A DNA stretch of 51,103 bases from an uncultured Ruminococcus sp. (GTDB lineage Bacteria > Bacillota > Clostridia > Oscillospirales > Acutalibacteraceae): positions 1-51,103 of the forward strand of contig CACZWQ010000013.1 in assembly GCA_902784855.1 (NCBI GenBank), given 5' to 3'. The notes beneath the pieces are model-generated. The model worked only from the letters and a program-made list of their open reading frames with translations. It was not told the origin of the DNA and ran no database searches. The translations under genes and the position numbers were made by a program. Below, in pieces: positions 6,379 through 45,933 of the stretch; the first letter of the stretch is position 1; each line of letters begins with the position of its first letter.

Positions 6379-6408
6379 TTGCGTTTTCTTGCGGTCTCGT
6401 GCTATAAT
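6379..6408 (+). promoter_or_regulatory. Sigma-A promoter for the transglutaminase/dockerin gene
   Basis: TTGCGT at 6379-6384 and TATAAT at 6403-6408 are 18 bases apart, 35 bases upstream of the ATG at 6443. Confidence 0.65.
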
Positions 6409-6442
6409 AAATAATAAAACAACTTTCAGGGAGGATTTTGGA

Positions 6443-8878
6443 ATGAAAAAACTGTTGGCGGGCATGCTCGCTGTGCTTCTTATTCTTTCGATGCTTGCCG
6501 TCGCGCCCGTTTCCGCGGCGCAGCTCAAGAGCGAAGTCACCTGTGGACATATTTCGGAGAATTCGGAGTTTTATAACCGCTATCGTGAGGCGATCGATTT
6601 TGCGGCGCAGGAGATGTATGATCTCAAAACGACCGTTGATATTTCGGATTACCGGGTCCCGTTGGATGATCGCAGGACCCTTTTTACTACCATCATGCAT
6701 ACGCACCCGGAGCTGTTTTTTGTCAGCAACTCGTATTCTGTCAGTTATTACGAGGGAAGCGGAGTGAATTATATCTATACGCTCAACATCCACTGGGGCA
6801 GGATCAAATACCGCGAGGACGGATCGCCGATCATTGAAAACAACAGATATGCGGAGCAGCTTTATTCTGCCGATGAGGTAATGGAAATGCGCCGCGAATT
6901 TTTGGCGCGCGCGCAGTGGTATCTCGACAAGGTCGACGACAGCATGTCCGACTTTGACAAGGCGCTGATCCTGCACGACGAGCTGGCACTCAACGCGAGC
7001 TACCTTTTGACGGGCGAGATCTATGACCTGATGGTCAACGACAGGGGCAAATGCTACGGCTATTCCGAGTGCTATTCCTACCTGTTGGCGCAGGTGGGCG
7101 TCGACACCGAGATCGTGGAGTCCGAGCCCATGAACCACCAGTGGAACAAGGTCAAGATCGACGGCACATACTACCATGTCGACGTCACATGGGATGACCC
7201 GACGCCTGACAAGCCCGGTTTTGTCAATCACACCTTCTTTTTGATGAGCGACGCTGCCGCCGAAGGCTACGAGGCGAATCCGCATTACAGGTATCATTCG
7301 GAATTCCCCTCGAACGACACCCGTTTTGACAACATGCGCTTCCGCAAGATCAACACCAAGATGTGCTATGTCGACGGCGAGATTTATCTGGTCGACAACG
7401 CCTTCAGCGGCGAAACAGCCGGCGAATTGCTGACCTATGATCTGTCAAGCGACCGCTTTGAGACCGTCGAGGATTTTAGTGATGAACGCTGGCGCACGGG
7501 GGGTGGAAATTCCTATTGGACGAAGCGCTATATGTCACTGGCGGAGTATGACGGCTATTTGTACATGAACACGCAGAAAACGGTATATGTCTTTGACACC
7601 GTAGACGAAACGCTGGCGCAGTTTGCCTCCAATACCTATAACAAGGGCTTTTTCGGCTTGCGGGTGATCGAAGGCAAGGTTTACGCGGTGCTGTCGGATG
7701 ATCCCAACACGACGGGAACCCTGCAATATGTCGGTGATTGCATCATCCGCGAGAGACCGACCGCGGAGGAGCCGACAACCGAGGCACCGACCACGGAAGA
7801 GCCGACCACGGTGCCGCCGACGGAAGAACCCACTACGGTGCCGCCGACGGAGGAACCGACCACAGTGCCGCCGACGGAGGAACCGACCACAGTGCCGCCG
7901 ACGGAGGAGCCGACCACAGTGCCGCCGACGGAGGAACCGACCACGGTGCCGCCGACGGAAGAACCCACCACAGTGCCGCCGACAGAGGAACCCACCACGG
8001 AACCGCCCGCAGCGGAGGACACCTATGTCATCGTCGGTGCGCCGAAGAGCATTTTCGGCACCCTTTGGGATGCGGACAACGCGGATAATCAGATGGAGAA
8101 AAACGACGACGGCACTTACGAAAAGACCTACACCGTCACCAAGGGCTACAACAACATCGCCTTCAAGCTGGTGGAGAACGGCAGTACATGGATCAGCAAC
8201 GAGGGCGGCGAGCCGATCACCTTCAACATGAGGGCGGCAGGCGACTTTACGATCATCTACGACCCCGCAGAGGGCAGCATCACGATCAGCGGAGACAATG
8301 TTTCCGAGACGCCGTCCTTCCTGTACAGCGCGGTCTATGTCACGGGCAACGGCGAGGGCGCATGGCTCAACGGCGCCGACTGGAACCCGGACGATGAGCG
8401 CAACCGGATGCATGAAGTGGCAAAGGACGTCTGGGAGATCGCGTACGAGGGCGTGGCGGACGCATTTGACCGCCAGTTCCGCTTTGCCATCGACGGCGCG
8501 GAGTATGATTTCTTCGGCGGCAGCTTCTCGGAGAGCGGCGCCGTCACCGACGCGGTGTATCAGGGCGGCAGCATCATCTTCGACACCGAGGATGACAGCC
8601 AGACCGTCAAGCTCCAGCTCGACTTGCGCAATTTTGATTACGCGACCAAGACGGGCGCGACCTTTACCGTCACGATCATCCCCGACGACCCGATGGGCGA
8701 CCTTGACGGGGACGGCGAGGTCACGATCAACGACGCGACCCTCCTGCTCGCCTGTCTGGCGGAGTTCCAAGAGCTTGACGACGCGCAGCGCGTGCTCGCC
8801 GACGTCAACCGCGACGGCAGAGTCGACGTCAGAGACGTCACCGCCATCCAGCGCATCCTCGCGGAGATCGATATCTAA
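6443..8878 (+). CDS. Secreted transglutaminase-like protein with a Thr/Pro linker, two beta domains and a type I dockerin
   Basis: The start is ATG 6443, after AGGGAGG at 6428-6434; the frame is open further upstream but starts there would overlap the promoter. The 811-residue product has a signal peptide (MKKLLAGMLAVLLILS... ending VSAA). A transglutaminase/protease-like core lies at about 200-252 with candidate Cys (GKCYGYSECYSYLL), His (MNHQWNKV) and Asp (YYHVDVTWDD) catalytic residues. A Thr/Pro/Glu linker of seven 9-residue repeats lies near 451-513. Two beta-sandwich-like domains follow at about 527-620 and 626-745, the first resembling starch-binding or carbohydrate-binding modules (FKLVENGSTW). 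A C-terminal dockerin has two Ca-binding repeats (GDLDGDGEVTINDATLLL and ADVNRDGRVDVRDVTAIQ). It is probably secreted and docked to a cohesin on a surface complex. Whether the core crosslinks, hydrolyses or only binds is not known. Confidence 0.85.
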   Translation: MKKLLAGMLAVLLILSMLAVAPVSAAQLKSEVTCGHISENSEFYNRYREAIDFAAQEMYDLKTTVDISDYRVPLDDRRTLFTTIMHTHPELFFVSNSYSVSYYEGSGVNYIYTLNIHWGRIKYREDGSPIIENNRYAEQLYSADEVMEMRREFLARAQWYLDKVDDSMSDFDKALILHDELALNASYLLTGEIYDLMVNDRGKCYGYSECYSYLLAQVGVDTEIVESEPMNHQWNKVKIDGTYYHVDVTWDDPTPDKPGFVNHTFFLMSDAAAEGYEANPHYRYHSEFPSNDTRFDNMRFRKINTKMCYVDGEIYLVDNAFSGETAGELLTYDLSSDRFETVEDFSDERWRTGGGNSYWTKRYMSLAEYDGYLYMNTQKTVYVFDTVDETLAQFASNTYNKGFFGLRVIEGKVYAVLSDDPNTTGTLQYVGDCIIRERPTAEEPTTEAPTTEEPTTVPPTEEPTTVPPTEEPTTVPPTEEPTTVPPTEEPTTVPPTEEPTTVPPTEEPTTVPPTEEPTTEPPAAEDTYVIVGAPKSIFGTLWDADNADNQMEKNDDGTYEKTYTVTKGYNNIAFKLVENGSTWISNEGGEPITFNMRAAGDFTIIYDPAEGSITISGDNVSETPSFLYSAVYVTGNGEGAWLNGADWNPDDERNRMHEVAKDVWEIAYEGVADAFDRQFRFAIDGAEYDFFGGSFSESGAVTDAVYQGGSIIFDTEDDSQTVKLQLDLRNFDYATKTGATFTVTIIPDDPMGDLDGDGEVTINDATLLLACLAEFQELDDAQRVLADVNRDGRVDVRDVTAIQRILAEIDI
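7793..7981 (+). repeat. 27-base tandem repeat encoding a Thr/Pro linker
   Basis: Seven consecutive 27-base units each encode TEEPTTVPP. The recurring GTG codons lie at 7811, 7838, 7865, 7892, 7919, 7946 and 7973. Units differ at synonymous positions. Partial units flank the array. It forms a flexible, probably glycosylated spacer and could change length by slippage in steps of nine residues. Confidence 0.95.
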
Positions 8879-13238: not shown

Positions 13239-15056
13239 ATGAAAAAGTTCGGTGCACGCAAGCTGATTTTGATGCTTGCGGACATATTCATCATTTCTGT
13301 CAGCGGTATCACGCTGAATTACATTTTGTCCTTCTTTAGGGATACGGCGATCTATTATGCTCCCGAGGCGAGCAAGGGCTTGCTTTATTACATCGTAATC
13401 GCGGTTTTGACCTGTGAACTGATGCAGCTGCTGCTGGGGTCTTATACCGTGATGTGGCGCTATTTCAACATCCGCGATTATTTCCGGTGCGGCGGCGCGA
13501 TGACAGGGGGCTTTGTTATCGCTTATTTGGTGTTGATGATGCTGCACATGGCGCCGCGCAAGATCTTTTTCGTGCTGTTCTTTGTCACAGCGACCTTGGG
13601 CGTGCTGTTGTTTCGGTTTTTGTTTAGATCCACCTTCTTGACGCTGACGCGTGAGGGCGAGCTGGAACATATGGAGCGCACGATGATCGTCGGCGCGGGC
13701 CAGGCGGGCAGGATGATCATCACGGAGATCCGCAACGCCGAGACCGATCCCAAGAATCCCTCGGGCAAGCTGCTGCCCGTCTGTATGGTCGACGACGACG
13801 CTTCGAAGCTGCATTCGCGGATCAGTGGTGTTGAAGTCGTGGGCGTCTGTGCGGAGATCCCGCGGCTCTGCACGGAAAAGGACATCGAGAGCATCATCGT
13901 TGCGATCCCCTCCTGCGAAGAGGAAGAAAAGCGCAAGATACTTGACTACTGCTCCAAAACCAAATGCAAAATCAAGGTCGTTCCTTATCTGAGCGAGCTG
14001 CTGCTGGGCGATCAGCAGCCACAGCTCATTACGCAGGCGAAGGAAATCAAAATCGAGGATCTGCTCGGCAGAAAGCCGATCGAATTCAACCGCAACAAGA
14101 TCGCCCAGTTCATCTGCGACAAGGTGTGTATGGTCACGGGCGGCGGCGGCTCCATCGGCAGCGAGCTGGTGCGCCAGATCGCCAAATACAGCCCCAAGCA
14201 GATCATCATTGTAGACATTTACGAAAACAACGCATATGATATACAGCAGGAGCTGCGGCTCGAATACGGCGATACGCTGAATCTGGAGACGCTGATCGCC
14301 TCGGTGCGCGACTACGCCAAGATGGAATCTATTTTCAAGAAATACCGCCCGCAGGTGGTGTTCCATGCGGCGGCGCACAAGCATGTGCCCCTGATGGAGA
14401 CCGTCCCCGAGGAAGCGGTCAAGAACAACATCTTCGGTACCTTTAATGTGGCGACGCTCGCCGAGTATTACAAGGCGGATAAGTTTGTGATGATCTCCAC
14501 CGACAAGGCGGTCAATCCCACCAACGTCATGGGCGCCACCAAGCGCGCCTGCGAGATGATCATCCAGTACAAGGCACAGACGACCCTGCACACGGAGTTC
14601 GTCACCACGCGCTTCGGCAACGTGCTCGGCTCCAACGGCTCTGTCATCCCGCTGTTCCGCCGCCAGATCGAGACGCTGGTGCTTGAGGCGGGCGCGATGG
14701 CAAAGGGCGGCGAGATCTTCGTGCTCGATATGGGCGCTCCGGTCAAGATCACCACGCTCGCGGAGAACCTGATCCGCATGTACGGCAAGGAGCCTTACAA
14801 GGATGTGCCGATCATCTTTACGGGACTGCGCCCGGGCGAAAAGCTCTTTGAGGAGCTGCTGATGGACGAGGAAGGACTGAAATCCACCGCAAACAAGAAA
14901 ATCTTCATCGGCAACCAGATCGCCATCGACCCGAACGAGATGCTGTATAAGCTGAACAAGCTGCACGAGAGCGCCGACGCCAACGACAGCGAGCGCACCG
15001 TTGAGCTGCTCAGCGACTTGGTGCCGACCTTCCATCACCAAACAGCAAAAGCATAA
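13239..15056 (+). CDS. Membrane-bound nucleotide-sugar 4,6-dehydratase, CapD/FlaA1/PglF family
   Basis: The 605-residue protein starts with about four membrane segments (first 130 residues). A first Rossmann-like domain follows (MIVGAGQAGRM near 148-158), then the SDR catalytic domain from about residue 290 with the NAD-binding glycine motif VTGGGGSIGSE. The signature STDKAVNPTNVMGATK near 420-436 is typical of the PglF/FlaA1 branch, where Met replaces the usual catalytic Tyr of the YxxxK motif. Such enzymes convert UDP-GlcNAc to a 4-keto-6-deoxy sugar for surface polysaccharide or glycoprotein synthesis. No aminotransferase or glycosyltransferase partners lie nearby, so the product is unclear. 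The adjacent nagB-glmM operon makes precursors of its likely substrate. Confidence 0.9.
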   Translation: MKKFGARKLILMLADIFIISVSGITLNYILSFFRDTAIYYAPEASKGLLYYIVIAVLTCELMQLLLGSYTVMWRYFNIRDYFRCGGAMTGGFVIAYLVLMMLHMAPRKIFFVLFFVTATLGVLLFRFLFRSTFLTLTREGELEHMERTMIVGAGQAGRMIITEIRNAETDPKNPSGKLLPVCMVDDDASKLHSRISGVEVVGVCAEIPRLCTEKDIESIIVAIPSCEEEEKRKILDYCSKTKCKIKVVPYLSELLLGDQQPQLITQAKEIKIEDLLGRKPIEFNRNKIAQFICDKVCMVTGGGGSIGSELVRQIAKYSPKQIIIVDIYENNAYDIQQELRLEYGDTLNLETLIASVRDYAKMESIFKKYRPQVVFHAAAHKHVPLMETVPEEAVKNNIFGTFNVATLAEYYKADKFVMISTDKAVNPTNVMGATKRACEMIIQYKAQTTLHTEFVTTRFGNVLGSNGSVIPLFRRQIETLVLEAGAMAKGGEIFVLDMGAPVKITTLAENLIRMYGKEPYKDVPIIFTGLRPGEKLFEELLMDEEGLKSTANKKIFIGNQIAIDPNEMLYKLNKLHESADANDSERTVELLSDLVPTFHHQTAKA

Positions 15057-15073
15057 ACAAAGCAGAATAAATA

Positions 15074-15109
15074 AAAGCGCTTTCTGACGAAAAACAGAGA
15101 GCGCTTTTT
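15074..15109 (+). terminator. Terminator after the CapD/FlaA1-like gene
   Basis: AGCGCTTTCTG (15076-15086) pairs with CAGAGAGCGCT (15095-15105), one mismatch, followed by a T-run. Confidence 0.8.
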
Positions 15110-15126
15110 CTGTTGCAGATATTTTC

Positions 15127-15154
15127 TTGACATTTTTCATCGGGTGTGTTAAAC
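15127..15154 (+). promoter_or_regulatory. Probable promoter of the nagB-glmM operon
   Basis: A perfect -35 TTGACA at 15127-15132 is followed 16 bases later by a weak -10-like TTAAAC (15149-15154) with TGTG just before it. Transcription from here would start near 15161 and give a leader of about 340 nt that carries the ribozyme. Confidence 0.5.
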
Positions 15155-15249
15155 TTTTAATGATTGTGCGGGTTCCCCATCAAATGATGCGAAGCCTTGC
15201 GAGATCACATGAACCAAAATAGCCGCCGGCGGAAAGGAGAAAACGGGGA

Positions 15250-15440
15250 CTATTAGCGCCAGGACCGATCACGGTTGACGAGGATTGGCAGTTATCGAAA
15301 GACTCGGCGGATGCTGCCACGGCCAAGACAAGACACCGACAGACTGTTAGCCTATCATTTTGATATTGCTGTTTTGTGTTTTCAGTGGGTCGAAAGGGAG
15401 AAAAGAAAAAGCAGAATCAACACTGTAACAGAGGTTCTCC
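15250..15440 (+). ncRNA. glmS-class self-cleaving ribozyme in the leader of nagB
   Basis: The hallmark conserved blocks of the GlcN6P-dependent glmS ribozyme occur in the right order and spacing: AGCGCC at 15255-15260, GTTGACGAGG at 15274-15283, TTATCGA at 15292-15298 and TCGGCGGATG at 15304-15313. By analogy, cleavage would fall between A15255 and G15256. Stem P2.1 is visible as TGGCAG (15286-15291) with CTGCCA (15314-15319). P1 is very short (GACC/GGTT at 15263-15266 and 15273-15276). The core ends near CGGCC at 15320-15324; the accessory P3/P4 region extends to about 15440, with uncertain limits. In known cases GlcN6P triggers cleavage and lowers mRNA levels. The next gene is nagB, not glmS. 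Confidence 0.9.
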
Positions 15441-15499
15441 CGGCACGGTGACAATATTTTTCAAAAAATTTCAGGCGTTAGCCAAAGGAGAAATAGATC

Positions 15500-16291
15500 A
15501 TGAGAGTTGTTATTCAGGACAATTACGATAAAATGTGCAAGTGGGCCGCGAACTATATCGCGCAGAAAATCAAGAACCACAAGGAGGACCGTCCCTTTGT
15601 GCTCGGACTTCCCACCGGTTCCTCGCCGATCGGCGTTTACAAGGAGCTCTACACCATGAACCAAAAGGGCGAGCTTTCCTTCGCGAATGTCGTTACCTTC
15701 AACATGGACGAATATCTCGGACTGCCTCACGAGCATGATCAGAGCTACTGGTACTTCATGCACGACAATTTCTTCGATCATCTTGTCGACATGAAGCCCG
15801 AGAACATCAACATCCTCAACGGCATGACCGACGATCCCGAGGGTGAATGCGCGCGCTATGAGGAAAAGATCGCTTCCTACGGAGGCATCGACCTCTTCAT
15901 GGGCGGCATCGGCGTTGACGGCCACATCGCGTTCAACGAGCCCTTTACCAGCCTTGCGTCCCGCACCGGCGTGAGAAACCTCACCACCGACACCAGAATC
16001 GTCAACTCCCGTTTCTTCGGCAACGATCCCGAAGCGGTTCCCGCGCAGGCGCTTTCCGTCGGCGTCGGCACCGTTACCGATTCCAAGGAAGTGCTCATTC
16101 TGATCAACGGCCACAACAAGGCGAGAGCCCTTGCCGCCACCGTTGAGGGCAGCGTTTCGCACAAGTGGACCTGCTCTGCGCTGCAAATGCACAACGGCGC
16201 CATCATCGCCTGCGACGAGGCTGCCTGCGGCGAGCTGACCGTTGACACCTACAAATACTTCCTCGACATCGAAAAGAAGGAGAGACTTTAA
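15500..16291 (+). CDS. nagB: Glucosamine-6-phosphate deaminase/isomerase, first gene of the ribozyme-controlled operon
   Basis: The 263-residue protein aligns with NagB across its length: LGLPTGSSPIGVYKEL near residue 35, the catalytic loop TFNMDEYLGLP (Asp/Glu near 72-73), GIGVDGHIAFNEP (Asp, His and Glu near 138-148) and LASRTGVRNLT. All catalytic residues I can place are present. The SD AAAGGAG at 15484-15490 is well spaced to ATG 15500. NagB interconverts GlcN6P and fructose-6-phosphate plus ammonia. It is usually catabolic and kept with nagA or PTS genes. Here its neighbours are a GlmU-C-like acyltransferase and GlmM, and its leader carries a GlcN6P-sensing ribozyme. This argues, as inference, for the aminating biosynthetic direction. 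Its stop overlaps the next start by one base. Confidence 0.93.
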   Translation: MRVVIQDNYDKMCKWAANYIAQKIKNHKEDRPFVLGLPTGSSPIGVYKELYTMNQKGELSFANVVTFNMDEYLGLPHEHDQSYWYFMHDNFFDHLVDMKPENINILNGMTDDPEGECARYEEKIASYGGIDLFMGGIGVDGHIAFNEPFTSLASRTGVRNLTTDTRIVNSRFFGNDPEAVPAQALSVGVGTVTDSKEVLILINGHNKARALAATVEGSVSHKWTCSALQMHNGAIIACDEAACGELTVDTYKYFLDIEKKERL

Positions 16292-16938
16292 TGTACACCA
16301 TCACAGATCTGTATGATCTCGACCACACACTGGCGAAGGATTATCTTTCTCAGTTTACCTATCCTTGGGAGGCGCTGAAGGGCATCAAGGACTTCATCCT
16401 CGCGCTCGGTCCCACCCTCGGCGACGACTATGAGGAGGTTTCGGAGAACGTCTGGGTCCACAAGACCGCGACTGTTTTCCCCTCTGCCTATCTCGGCGCT
16501 CCCTGCATCATCGGTCCCGAGACCGAGGTCAGACACGGCGCGTTCATCCGCGGCTCGGCACTTGTCGGCGCAAACTGCGTTGTCGGCAACTCCGTCGAGC
16601 TCAAGAACGTCATCCTCTTTGACCATGTGCAGACCCCGCACTACAACTATGTCGGCGACTCCATTCTGGGCTACTACTCCCACATGGGCGCAGGCTCCAT
16701 CACCTCGAACGTCAAGTCCGACAAAAAGCTCGTTGTGGTCCACAACGGCACCGAGGCGATCGAAACAGGCGTGATGCTGGGCGACTATGTTGAGGTCGGC
16801 TGCAACGCGGTCTGCAACCCGGGCAGCGTGCTGGGCAGACACGTGAGCGTGTATCCCACCTCCTGTGTGCGCGGCGTGATCCCCGAGAACTGCATTTTCA
16901 AGAACAGCGGCGACATCGTAGAAAGGAAGGCTGACTGA
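16291..16938 (+). CDS. Left-handed beta-helix acyltransferase resembling the GlmU C-terminal domain
   Basis: This 215-residue protein (ATG 16291 overlapping the nagB stop, TAATG) has an N-terminal helical stretch of about 60 residues. Hexapeptide-repeat coils follow at about 60-200, including LGAPCIIGPETEVRHGAFIRG, VVGNSVELKNVILFDH and YVGDSILGYYSHMGAGS. The VELKNVILFDH...PHYNYVGDS...GAGS pattern is that of the acetyltransferase half of GlmU and of archaeal sugar-1-phosphate acyltransferases. There is no nucleotidyltransferase domain. The likely activity, by context with nagB and glmM, is N-acetylation of GlcN-1-P to GlcNAc-1-P. Similar proteins are often labelled UDP-GlcNAc pyrophosphorylase, but no Rossmann-type pyrophosphorylase motif is visible. 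Confidence 0.8.
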   Translation: MYTITDLYDLDHTLAKDYLSQFTYPWEALKGIKDFILALGPTLGDDYEEVSENVWVHKTATVFPSAYLGAPCIIGPETEVRHGAFIRGSALVGANCVVGNSVELKNVILFDHVQTPHYNYVGDSILGYYSHMGAGSITSNVKSDKKLVVVHNGTEAIETGVMLGDYVEVGCNAVCNPGSVLGRHVSVYPTSCVRGVIPENCIFKNSGDIVERKAD

Positions 16939-18287
16939 TGGGCAAGTATTTCGGAACCGACGGCTTCAGAGGCGAAGCCAACAAAAACCTGACCTTTGAG
17001 CATGCCGTGCAGATCGGTCGTTTCCTCGGCTGGTACTACGGCGCCAACATGGGCAAAAAGGCGAAGGTCGTCATCGGCAAGGACACCCGCCGTTCCTCCT
17101 ATATGTTTGAGTACGCCCTGTGCACGGGCTTGATGGCGAGCGGCGCCGACGCGTATATCATGCACGTCACCACCACACCGTCCGTCGCCTATATCACGCG
17201 TATCGACGACTTTGACTGCGGCATCATGATCTCCGCTTCTCACAACCCCTTCTATGACAACGGCATCAAGCTGCTCAACAGCAAGGGCGAGAAGATGGAG
17301 GAGGAGACGCTGCTCAAGGTCGAGGATTATATCGACGGCAAGCTGGAGATCCCCGTTGCCGAGAGAGAGCAGATCGGCCGCACCGTCGACTATGTCGCCG
17401 GCCGTAACCGCTATATCGGCTACCTCATCTCCATGAGCAAATACAGCTTCAAGGGCGTCAAGGTCGGTCTCGACGTCGCCAACGGCGCCGCATGGCAGAT
17501 CGCCAAGGGCGTGTTCGACGCGCTGGGCGCCAAGACCTATGTCATGAACGACAACCCCGACGGCTTCAACATCAACACCGACTGCGGCTCCACCCACATC
17601 AGCCATTTGCAGAAATTCGTTGTGGAAAAGGGTCTGGACATCGGCTTTGCCTATGACGGCGACGCCGACCGCTGCCTTGCAGTGGATGAGAAGGGCAACC
17701 TGATCACCGGCGACCACATCATCTACATCTACGGCTGCTACATGAAGGAGAGAGGCAAGCTCCTCAACAACAAGGTCGTCGCGACCGTGATGAGCAACTT
17801 CGGTTTCTTCAAGGCGCTGGAAAAGGTCGGCATCGAATGCGACAAGACCAAGGTCGGCGACAAGTATGTCTATGAGAACATGGTCAATACCGGCAACCGC
17901 ATCGGCGGCGAGGAGTCCGGTCACATCATCTTCTCTAAGTATGCCACCACCGGCGACGGCATTTTGACCTCTCTCAAGGTGATGGAGGTCATGCTGGCGA
18001 AGGAGAAGCCCCTCAGCGAGCTGGCGGCTCCCATGGTCATGTACCCGCAGGTGCTCAAGAATGTCCGCGTTGCCTCCAAGCCCGCGGCAAAGAACGATCC
18101 CGACGTGCAGGCTGAGGTCGAAAAGGTGACCGAGGCGCTGGGCGATACCGGTCGTATCCTCCTCAGAGAATCCGGCACCGAGCCTGTGATCCGCGTCATG
18201 GTCGAGGCAGGTACCAACGAGGAATGCGAGAAGTATGTCGATCAGGTCATCGACGTCATCCGCGCAAAGGGTCATATCGTTTCCTAA
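16938..18287 (+). CDS. glmM: Phosphoglucosamine mutase
   Basis: The 449-residue protein starts at ATG 16938, overlapping the previous stop by one base (TGATG). It has the alpha-D-phosphohexomutase domains: N-terminal KYFGTDGFRGEAN, active-site Ser loop MISASHNPFYDNGIK near 97-111, metal loop YDGDADRCLAVD near 238-249, sugar loop GGEESGHIIF near 322 and the C-terminal phosphate loop RESGTEPVIRVM. It converts GlcN6P to GlcN1P for UDP-GlcNAc and peptidoglycan synthesis. Together with NagB and the beta-helix acyltransferase it would cover three consecutive steps. The final uridylyl transfer is not encoded in the window. The operon ends at the terminator at 18304. Confidence 0.95.
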   Translation: MGKYFGTDGFRGEANKNLTFEHAVQIGRFLGWYYGANMGKKAKVVIGKDTRRSSYMFEYALCTGLMASGADAYIMHVTTTPSVAYITRIDDFDCGIMISASHNPFYDNGIKLLNSKGEKMEEETLLKVEDYIDGKLEIPVAEREQIGRTVDYVAGRNRYIGYLISMSKYSFKGVKVGLDVANGAAWQIAKGVFDALGAKTYVMNDNPDGFNINTDCGSTHISHLQKFVVEKGLDIGFAYDGDADRCLAVDEKGNLITGDHIIYIYGCYMKERGKLLNNKVVATVMSNFGFFKALEKVGIECDKTKVGDKYVYENMVNTGNRIGGEESGHIIFSKYATTGDGILTSLKVMEVMLAKEKPLSELAAPMVMYPQVLKNVRVASKPAAKNDPDVQAEVEKVTEALGDTGRILLRESGTEPVIRVMVEAGTNEECEKYVDQVIDVIRAKGHIVS

Positions 18288-18303
18288 ACTGTCAAATAAT
18301 CAT

Positions 18304-18336
18304 GCGCTCTGCCGCTTCTGCGGCGGGGCGCTTTTT
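18304..18336 (+). terminator. Rho-independent terminator after glmM
   Basis: A 12-bp stem (18304-18315 with 18320-18331, two G-U pairs, loop TTCT) is followed by TTTTT. Confidence 0.9.
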
Positions 18337-18398
18337 CCTTGCGGGCAAGAATCACAAAAAGAAAACCGTCGTATCCCGAATTTTTTGCAGGAATATGC

Positions 18399-45642: not shown

Positions 45643-45933
45643 TGCGTGACTGCACATAGATATGCGATGAAGCGGGAGGTTGCGGCGATTTCGCCGGTTT
45701 TTCCGTGGAGTATGTCCGATTTTAAACCGGGCGATTACAATGAAACATAGAGGATAACTGCGGCTGGTTGGGTTGCTAAGCCATAGGTATGCTCTGCGCT
45801 TTCAAAATGACCCCGTTAACTGCATCAGTTTAACGGTTTTTTTCATGCAGGGTGAAGAAACACCCGGCCGTGTGGAAGAAAAAAGCTTTGAAAGCACGCC
45901 CGCCTACACGAAAATTTTAAGGAGGCGACGAAA
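45643..45933 (+). promoter_or_regulatory. Long structured leader of the S10 operon
   Basis: The 290-nt leader has no credible ORF. It contains complementary segments (CGGCGATTTCGCCG near 45681-45694) and, from 45813, a terminator-like hairpin, then a strong SD AAGGAGG at 45919-45925 before rpsJ. S10-operon leaders in bacteria often mediate feedback by ribosomal protein L4 through attenuation, and this one looks fit for such control. The binding protein is inference. Confidence 0.6.
45813..45843 (+). terminator. Putative attenuator within the rpsJ leader
   Basis: CCGTTAAC (45813-45820) and TTTAACGG (45829-45836) pair with a short loop and are followed by seven T. An intrinsic-terminator shape inside the leader, 90 bases before rpsJ, suggests regulated premature termination. 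Confidence 0.7.

Follow-up and report, generated by a model that had tools for sequence, protein, structure and literature searches.

A glmS-class ribozyme precedes a nagB-acetyltransferase-glmM operon in an uncultured Ruminococcus sp. and in other ruminant gut bacteria

Organization of the locus

The window (the whole stretch of DNA analyzed, 51,103 nucleotides) comes from the draft genome of an uncultured Ruminococcus sp. (G000; 2.05 Mb in 143 contigs, completeness 94.25%, contamination 3.4%). As revealed in Table 1, it carries a ribozyme of the glmS class followed by nagB, by a gene for a left-handed β-helix acetyltransferase and by glmM. The initial annotation had taken the gene after the ribozyme to encode a glucosamine-6-phosphate deaminase, and the TIGR00502 score bears this out. 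It had missed that nagB overlaps the acetyltransferase gene, which in turn overlaps glmM, by one base each (stop/start TAATG and TGATG, respectively).

Table 1. Features of the ribozyme-nagB locus (window coordinates).
Feature	Position	Strand	Evidence
Terminator-like hairpin, 13 pairs, T-run, 3′ of CapD/PseB-like gene	15074-15112	+	Minimum-energy fold of 15060-15125, -25.1 kcal/mol
Candidate sigma-70-like promoter, TTGACA-17-TAAACT, TG before second hexamer	15127-15155	+	Consensus scan, 10/12 matches
glmS-class ribozyme with P3/P4/P4.1 domain and ~60 extra bases before that domain	15249-15455	+	Rfam RF00234; own model R1; covariation in relatives
Ribosome-binding site of nagB, AAAGGAG	15484-15490	+	Read from sequence
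nagB, glucosamine-6-phosphate deaminase, long E. coli type	15500-16291	+	TIGR00502 377.4 bits (cut-off 236.9); solved relatives; alignment with E. coli NagB
Left-handed β-helix acetyltransferase, GlmU C-terminal-half-like	16291-16938	+	TIGR03992 118.3 bits, profile 213-393 of 393; GlmU structures
glmM, phosphoglucosamine mutase	16938-18287	+	TIGR01455 545.7 bits (cut-off 447.55)
Terminator-like hairpin, 12 pairs, T-run, closing the operon	18304-18336	+	Minimum-energy fold of 18280-18380

From the 3′ end of the ribozyme it is 29 bases to the ribosome-binding site and 45 to the nagB ATG. Upstream of it lies a CapD/PseB-like gene (13239-15056). The hairpin 3′ of this gene, absent from the consensus-scan list and seen in the minimum-energy fold, is terminator-like and would separate the gene from the ribozyme transcript. 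Two promoter-like sites were found in the scanned stretch, against 0.5 expected; the one listed in Table 1, a candidate from sequence, is placed ~95 bases upstream of the ribozyme.

TIGR03992 is a full-length model of archaeal GlmU with a cut-off of 292.1 bits; the operon acetyltransferase, which matches its last 181 positions, scores below it. By this similarity the protein is a probable glucosamine-1-phosphate N-acetyltransferase. At 1e-10, G000 has no other GlmU-C-like match, and a genome search found glmM over the cut-off only in the operon. No bifunctional GlmU over the cut-off was found in 40 genomes of the genus; uridylyltransferase halves were located elsewhere in the genomes, G000 showing only a 73-position fragment, on contig C62. 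In a profile search no nagA was found beside the window nagB, whose neighbours are other genes.

The leader RNA belongs to the glmS ribozyme class

The initial annotation had recognized a glmS-class ribozyme by its hallmark blocks and proposed a search with the Rfam model. The full RF00234 model matched positions 15244-15377 of the plus strand with 43.9 bits (E = 4.6e-07), the curated gathering cut-off being 37 bits. All the quoted blocks are present in order (AGCGCC, GTTGACGAGG, TTATCGA and TCGGCGGATG, at 15255-15313). Relatives were gathered with a loose motif, and the 27 without long inserts (20 from public nagB loci and 7 from genus mates; the window was left out) were aligned and used to build a covariance model, R1. 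The core blocks are mostly invariant in these 27 sequences, whose alignment has 56 invariant columns.

R1 matched the window with 145.5 bits (E = 4.4e-37), its sole match up to E = 10. The whole model was aligned, P4 domain included, so that the ribozyme extends beyond the Rfam match; the closing strand of its P3/P4 domain ends near 15442. The low Rfam score is explained by the ~60 extra bases before P3/P4, which throw off the Rfam alignment. Among the 27 relatives, both sides change in 17 of the 31 consensus pairs, and 96.9% of the paired cells can pair, compared with 87.5% when letters were shuffled within columns (0 of 500 shuffles reached as high a value) and 30-46% when the partners were slid. 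Because the consensus structure comes from this very alignment, the pairing controls, which cover its helices, are biased in its favour. A chance match or a wrong ribozyme call is ruled out by the Rfam score, the R1 score and the covariation controls, and no other RF00234 match occurs in G000. By the sequence and structure features tested, the window RNA is a member of the glmS class.

The helix names (P1, P2, P3, P4, P4.1) are those of the family. Likewise, the cut position inside AGCGCC is taken to be that of the known family, and from it we infer cleavage at the step A15255/G15256, in agreement with the mark at G15256 in the initial annotation. The window RNA resembles the RF00234 ribozymes of Bacillus subtilis and Clostridioides difficile in its core blocks, cleavage-site sequence and P1/P2/P3/P4 organization. 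It differs from them in its short P1, in the letters of the P4.1 region characteristic of its subtype, in the extra bases before P3/P4 found in G000, and in lying before nagB-acetyltransferase-glmM, not glmS. In three genus mates (G181, G158 and G163; loci L144, L146 and L147) R1 matched the nagB-linked ribozymes in two pieces, of 77-80 and 41-50 bits, as if they were split by a longer insert.

Ribozyme-nagB order recurs in the genus and in public genomes

RF00234 matches at E values up to 1 were found in 21 of the 40 genus genomes, 16 of them over the cut-off. The ribozyme of G163, at 36.6 bits, is below the cut-off yet clearly real, which brings the genomes with a clear ribozyme to 17; the best scores of the other four were only 15.7-20.3 bits. 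In all 17 genomes nagB follows on the same strand. With TIGR00502 at 1e-30, nagB was detected in 19 of the 40 genomes, namely the 17 ribozyme carriers plus G162 and G171 (both 278 bits). The G162 NagB is short and 39% identical to the window NagB, and G150 holds the end of a long nagB at a contig end.

Beyond the genus, an RF00234 match was present in 38 of 147 genomes of the order; in the 38 matches besides the window's, glmS lies behind the ribozyme in 31, and seven (L019, L026, L027, L029, L030, L034 and L047) are without glmS in the stretch opened. At the class level, R1 matched at 1e-5 in 135 of 391 genomes, and the best 30 loci have behind the ribozyme glmS (25), nagB (3: the window's own, G486 and G369), acetyltransferase-glmM (1) or none of these (1). 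Hence, glmS behind the ribozyme is the rule and nagB is the exception, but a conserved one.

Five of the seven order-level loci belong to one family (f19), and have strong RF00234 matches (78-87 bits) that are not before glmS. In two of them (L026 and L029; G075 and G115) the match is before a Na/Pi-cotransporter gene. In the other three (L027, L030 and L034; G089, G059 and G018) the match is on the 3′ side of another gene, a 4-alpha-glucanotransferase gene in L027 and L034, and faces a convergent gene. In genus g184, the same ribozyme subtype as in the window was found before glmS in L241 (G598) and before acetyltransferase-glmM in L243 (G581), with 142 and 138 bits, as if it were moving between genes of one pathway.

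Among public genomes, we examined the best 80 of 589 loci encoding a relative of the window NagB. The closest proteins in this set are from the MAGs RUG299 and RUG135 (98-100% identity), followed at 97% by others and by that of Ruminococcaceae bacterium P7, a named genome. Labels of ruminant gut sites, from rumen to rectum, are common among the 80 loci. A ribozyme was found at 38 of these best 80 loci and none was found at 42. Of the 38 ribozymes, 31 are followed first by nagB, six by the acetyltransferase gene and one by glmM. At eight loci nagB is alone behind the ribozyme; the contig soon ends in two of these (L062 and L130), and in the other six (L063, L073, L078, L080, L090 and L092) further sequence follows without glmM or the acetyltransferase. 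The gene after nagB in L080 codes for YvcK (TIGR01826, 268.2 bits, cut-off 196), which in B. subtilis is called GlmR and is said to divert carbon to peptidoglycan synthesis (PMC6171935).

Both covariance models and the same order in 16 further genus genomes confirm the central claim of the initial annotation, that a glmS-class ribozyme lies upstream of nagB instead of glmS, and the survey it suggested shows that the order recurs in genus mates and public genomes. This recurrence also rules out a misassembly hiding glmS between the ribozyme and nagB. No description of a glmS ribozyme before nagB was found in the literature searched, the McCown 2011 survey of the class being outside that search. 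In the abstract of that survey, McCown et al. reportedly place all but two of the 463 glmS ribozymes then considered in glmS mRNAs. This places a known class of ribozyme on a new target, nagB-glmM, and in a new circuit.

NagB keeps its catalytic residues and part of the activator site

Asp72, Asp141, His143 and Glu148, which we take to be the catalytic residues of NagB, are all kept in the window protein when aligned with E. coli NagB, and Asp141, His143 and Glu148 are kept in 81 of 81 NagB sequences. The two proteins are of the same long type (1cd5, 317.5 bits). E. coli NagB is activated through Tyr121, Asp141, Glu148, Ser151, Arg158, Lys160 and Tyr254, as listed in the portion of PMC4281351 consulted. 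Across the 81 sequences, four of these seven are retained (Asp141 and Glu148 in all 81, Tyr121 and Tyr254 in 80 each), and the other three always differ, Ser151 being Thr, Arg158 Gly and Lys160 Arg. The window NagB hence lacks the full residue set of a catabolic, GlcNAc6P-activated NagB. Two of the substitutions, Ser151Thr and Lys160Arg, are mild; Arg158Gly is not. All three are also present in the 42 relatives without the ribozyme, so they single out no anabolic copies, and we rejected them as a mark of anabolism. A further difference from E. coli is that its nagB adjoins nagA, nagC and nagE.

In the sections of PMC4281351 consulted, Giardia lamblia NagB makes GlcN6P from fructose-6-phosphate and ammonia and is insensitive to GlcNAc6P; like the window NagB, it retains just four of the seven activator residues named above. 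Giardia differs in being a eukaryote without GlmS that raises expression at encystment (PMC4281351, same sections), whereas here a bacterial operon carries a ribozyme, the genomes mostly have glmS too, and amination is our reading. Akkermansia muciniphila lives in the gut, as many of the carriers do, and its NagB, which shows no GlcNAc6P activation, has been considered as a source of GlcN6P. As far as the passages of PMC5902328 consulted go, however, the enzyme formed no GlcN6P at physiological conditions (Km 41 mM for ammonium and 5.5 mM for fructose-6-phosphate), and they speak of no ribozyme; with glmS missing and NagB failing in amination, this organism needs GlcNAc.

Most carriers keep glmS

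The initial annotation had also missed that G000 has glmS elsewhere in the genome, split over two contig ends on other contigs. Over its first 493 residues the protein is 82.8-90.1% identical to those of 13 ribozyme-bearing genus mates and 66.4-78.7% identical to those of 17 ribozyme-free ones (30 loci opened in all). Because it is closer to the former, this glmS is most likely native and not a contamination. A glmS over the family cut-off was found in 34 of the 40 genus genomes and in 15 of the 17 with ribozyme-nagB. The two exceptions are G179, whose glmS looks interrupted, perhaps through an assembly fault, as its sequence contains a run of N, and G152 (89% complete), with a 123-bit partial match only.

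At 1e-40, glmS was matched in 40 of the 50 public genomes with this nagB, and in 30 of the 36 that bear the ribozyme. No match at this threshold was obtained in ten: six of the 36 with the ribozyme (L057, L059, L062, L082, L089 and L100), which we do not take as evidence of a missing glmS, and four of the 14 without it (L086, L087, L099 and L106). A repeat search of the six ribozyme-bearing genomes at 1e-3 gave no match in G197 and otherwise partial ones that did not exceed 110.1 bits. In addition, G581 (93% complete), which has ribozyme-acetyltransferase-glmM and no nagB on the stretch read, gave no glmS match over 113 bits.

With glmS kept in most carriers tested, NagB as a replacement for a lost GlmS is not generally true. 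Since, moreover, the Akkermansia NagB failed as a synthase, an ammonia route via NagB is probably additional to GlmS, and the presence of glmS in most ribozyme-nagB genomes tested means that it is not obligatory.

A search for nagA with TIGR00221 at 1e-10 gave no match in the 40 genus genomes; of the 14 control genomes 8 were positive, and B. subtilis was negative although it has nagA, so this search can miss the gene. E. coli NagA at 1e-3, a search without a positive control, likewise matched none of the 40.

In G162 (99% complete) no glmS was found at 1e-30, and a second glmM is followed by the short nagB (L237, 2040-4460). This second GlmM has an N-terminal helix-turn-helix domain (HTH_3, 56.4 bits) before its PGM_PMM domains. 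G162 is possibly a glmS-free genome relying on NagB or uptake.

Feedback on a biosynthetic NagB as the preferred interpretation

The glmS ribozyme is a feedback switch of GlmS, the enzyme that makes GlcN6P. At this locus the same sensor stands on a gene whose name refers to the reverse reaction, and on the genes for the steps that come next in the pathway. Known glmS ribozymes repress at high GlcN6P, in the excerpts of PMC2258182 and PMC11477304 consulted. If NagB acts as a synthase, such repression is feedback; for a deaminase it would be self-defeating. It is likely that the locus is an ammonia-driven UDP-GlcNAc operon under GlcN6P feedback, with NagB aminating fructose-6-phosphate. When GlcN6P is plentiful, it would bind the leader as a cofactor and the RNA would cut itself at the step given above, after which the shortened nagB-acetyltransferase-glmM mRNA would be degraded; when GlcN6P is scarce, the operon would be expressed. 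NagB, working in the aminating direction, would convert fructose-6-phosphate and ammonia into GlcN6P, which GlmM and the acetyltransferase would take onward to UDP-GlcNAc, with a separate GlmU-N-like uridylyltransferase finishing the pathway. This would be ordinary product feedback with an ammonia-using enzyme in place of the usual target, glmS, in ruminant gut bacteria that mostly also keep a ribozyme-free glmS. Ammonia is abundant in the rumen. We infer from the locus that GlcN6P causes cleavage, that the mRNA then decays, that NagB aminates and that it does so with ammonia.

The biosynthetic reading draws on the linkage of nagB with genes for later steps to UDP-GlcNAc, glmM (in G000 the sole one over the cut-off) and that of a GlmU-C-like acetyltransferase, on the failure of the weakly controlled searches to find nagA in the 40 genus genomes, and on the Giardia precedent; NagB as the synthase is further backed by the six loci with ribozyme and nagB that lack both genes. 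The suggestion in the initial annotation that the arrangement makes sense if NagB makes GlcN6P thus gains from the genomic context; with glmS mostly present, NagB is probably an addition to GlmS and no replacement. The 42 loci without a detected ribozyme, among the best 80 of 589 with nagB of this type, count against the anabolic reading.

Could nagB be a mere passenger? The ribozyme would then control glmM and the acetyltransferase, and the deaminase would act as an overflow valve returning GlcN6P to glycolysis. The gene order behind the ribozyme does vary, with nagB not first in 7 of 38 loci, and the same subtype stands before acetyltransferase-glmM with no nagB on the stretch (L243/L282). 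Most carriers tested have glmS, and deamination is the usual reaction of NagB enzymes in the parts of PMC4281351 and PMC5902328 consulted. We nevertheless consider this unlikely: a valve that shuts at high GlcN6P has the wrong sign, the ribozyme governs nagB at the six loci with no glmM or acetyltransferase behind, and nagA was not found in the 40 genus genomes, although the controls of those searches are weak.

An inverted switch, in which GlcN6P-triggered cleavage would turn on a catabolic nagB in response to its substrate, for instance by freeing the ribosome-binding site or stabilizing the mRNA, is very improbable. Cleavage could alter the leader, given the short distance between ribozyme and ribosome-binding site. 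Three points speak against it. Cleavage ~245 bases upstream of the ATG would leave the folded ribozyme still on the transcript of the gene; repression is the mode of the known glmS ribozymes (PMC2258182 and PMC11477304, in the same excerpts); and the same subtype precedes glmS in L241, where induction would be pointless. Slightly less credible still is the view that GlcN6P has ceased to act on this RNA, which would be a glmS-ribozyme relative that is degenerate or shifted to another ligand. The low Rfam score hints at it, as does the decay of such elements (the AGCGCC block is gone beside the broken nagB of G369). Against it, the extra bases before P3/P4 account for that score, and the window RNA has a high R1 score, agrees with the strongly conserved letters of its subtype and has relatives with many invariant columns.

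If feedback on a synthase is the correct reading, genes annotated as catabolic deaminases would in fact be synthases, a case argued from regulation in sequence, and there would be a second, glutamine-free bacterial entry into amino-sugar synthesis. In these bacteria, compounds designed to activate glmS ribozymes would strike at another enzyme.

Possible transfer and decay of the locus

Within the best 80 of 589 public loci, the operon GlmM of the window is 80-95% identical to that of the 29 ribozyme-bearing loci holding glmM and 48-87% identical to that of 17 loci without the ribozyme. Its identity to GlmM of three ribozyme-free genus mates (G184, G178 and G185, the only ones compared) is 42-46%. 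The window NagB is 87% identical to proteins from contigs labelled Spirochaetales (L095) and Flexilinea (L101), and 75-91% to those from contigs labelled Erysipelotrichaceae. For comparison, glmS of the window's genome and of ribozyme-free species of the same genus share 66-79% identity. These comparisons point to a transfer of the operon that displaced the resident glmM, with the reservation that not all proteins evolve at one rate and that some MAG labels could be wrong.

We advance a broader scenario tentatively, leaning slightly against it as a whole: a UDP-GlcNAc operon driven by ammonia, with NagB at its aminating entry and the ribozyme as feedback sensor, would have spread sideways among ruminant gut bacteria, displacing the resident glmM and providing a low-affinity ammonia route beside GlmS, like glutamate dehydrogenase beside glutamine synthetase, and may be the sole GlcN6P source in some lineages.

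The locus of G369 (L245, in a genome 99% complete) seems to be in decay. Here nagB breaks off after ~111 residues, the ribozyme is without its 5′ AGCGCC block, and a full glmS is found elsewhere in the genome. After the broken nagB there is a frame with a weak transposase-domain match (DDE_Tnp_1, 17.7 bits, cut-off 23) that runs off the stretch. The ribozyme seems to decay where nagB is broken, which fits a functional link between the two.

Elsewhere in the window, an S10-Clostridia ribosomal protein leader, an ordinary known element, was detected at 45659-45734 of the plus strand (50.7 bits). Also on the plus strand, a large open reading frame (6389-8878) encodes what is probably a secreted protein of the cellulosome type: it carries a repetitive TEEPTTVPP linker and an X25-like domain and ends in a type I dockerin (36.3 bits).
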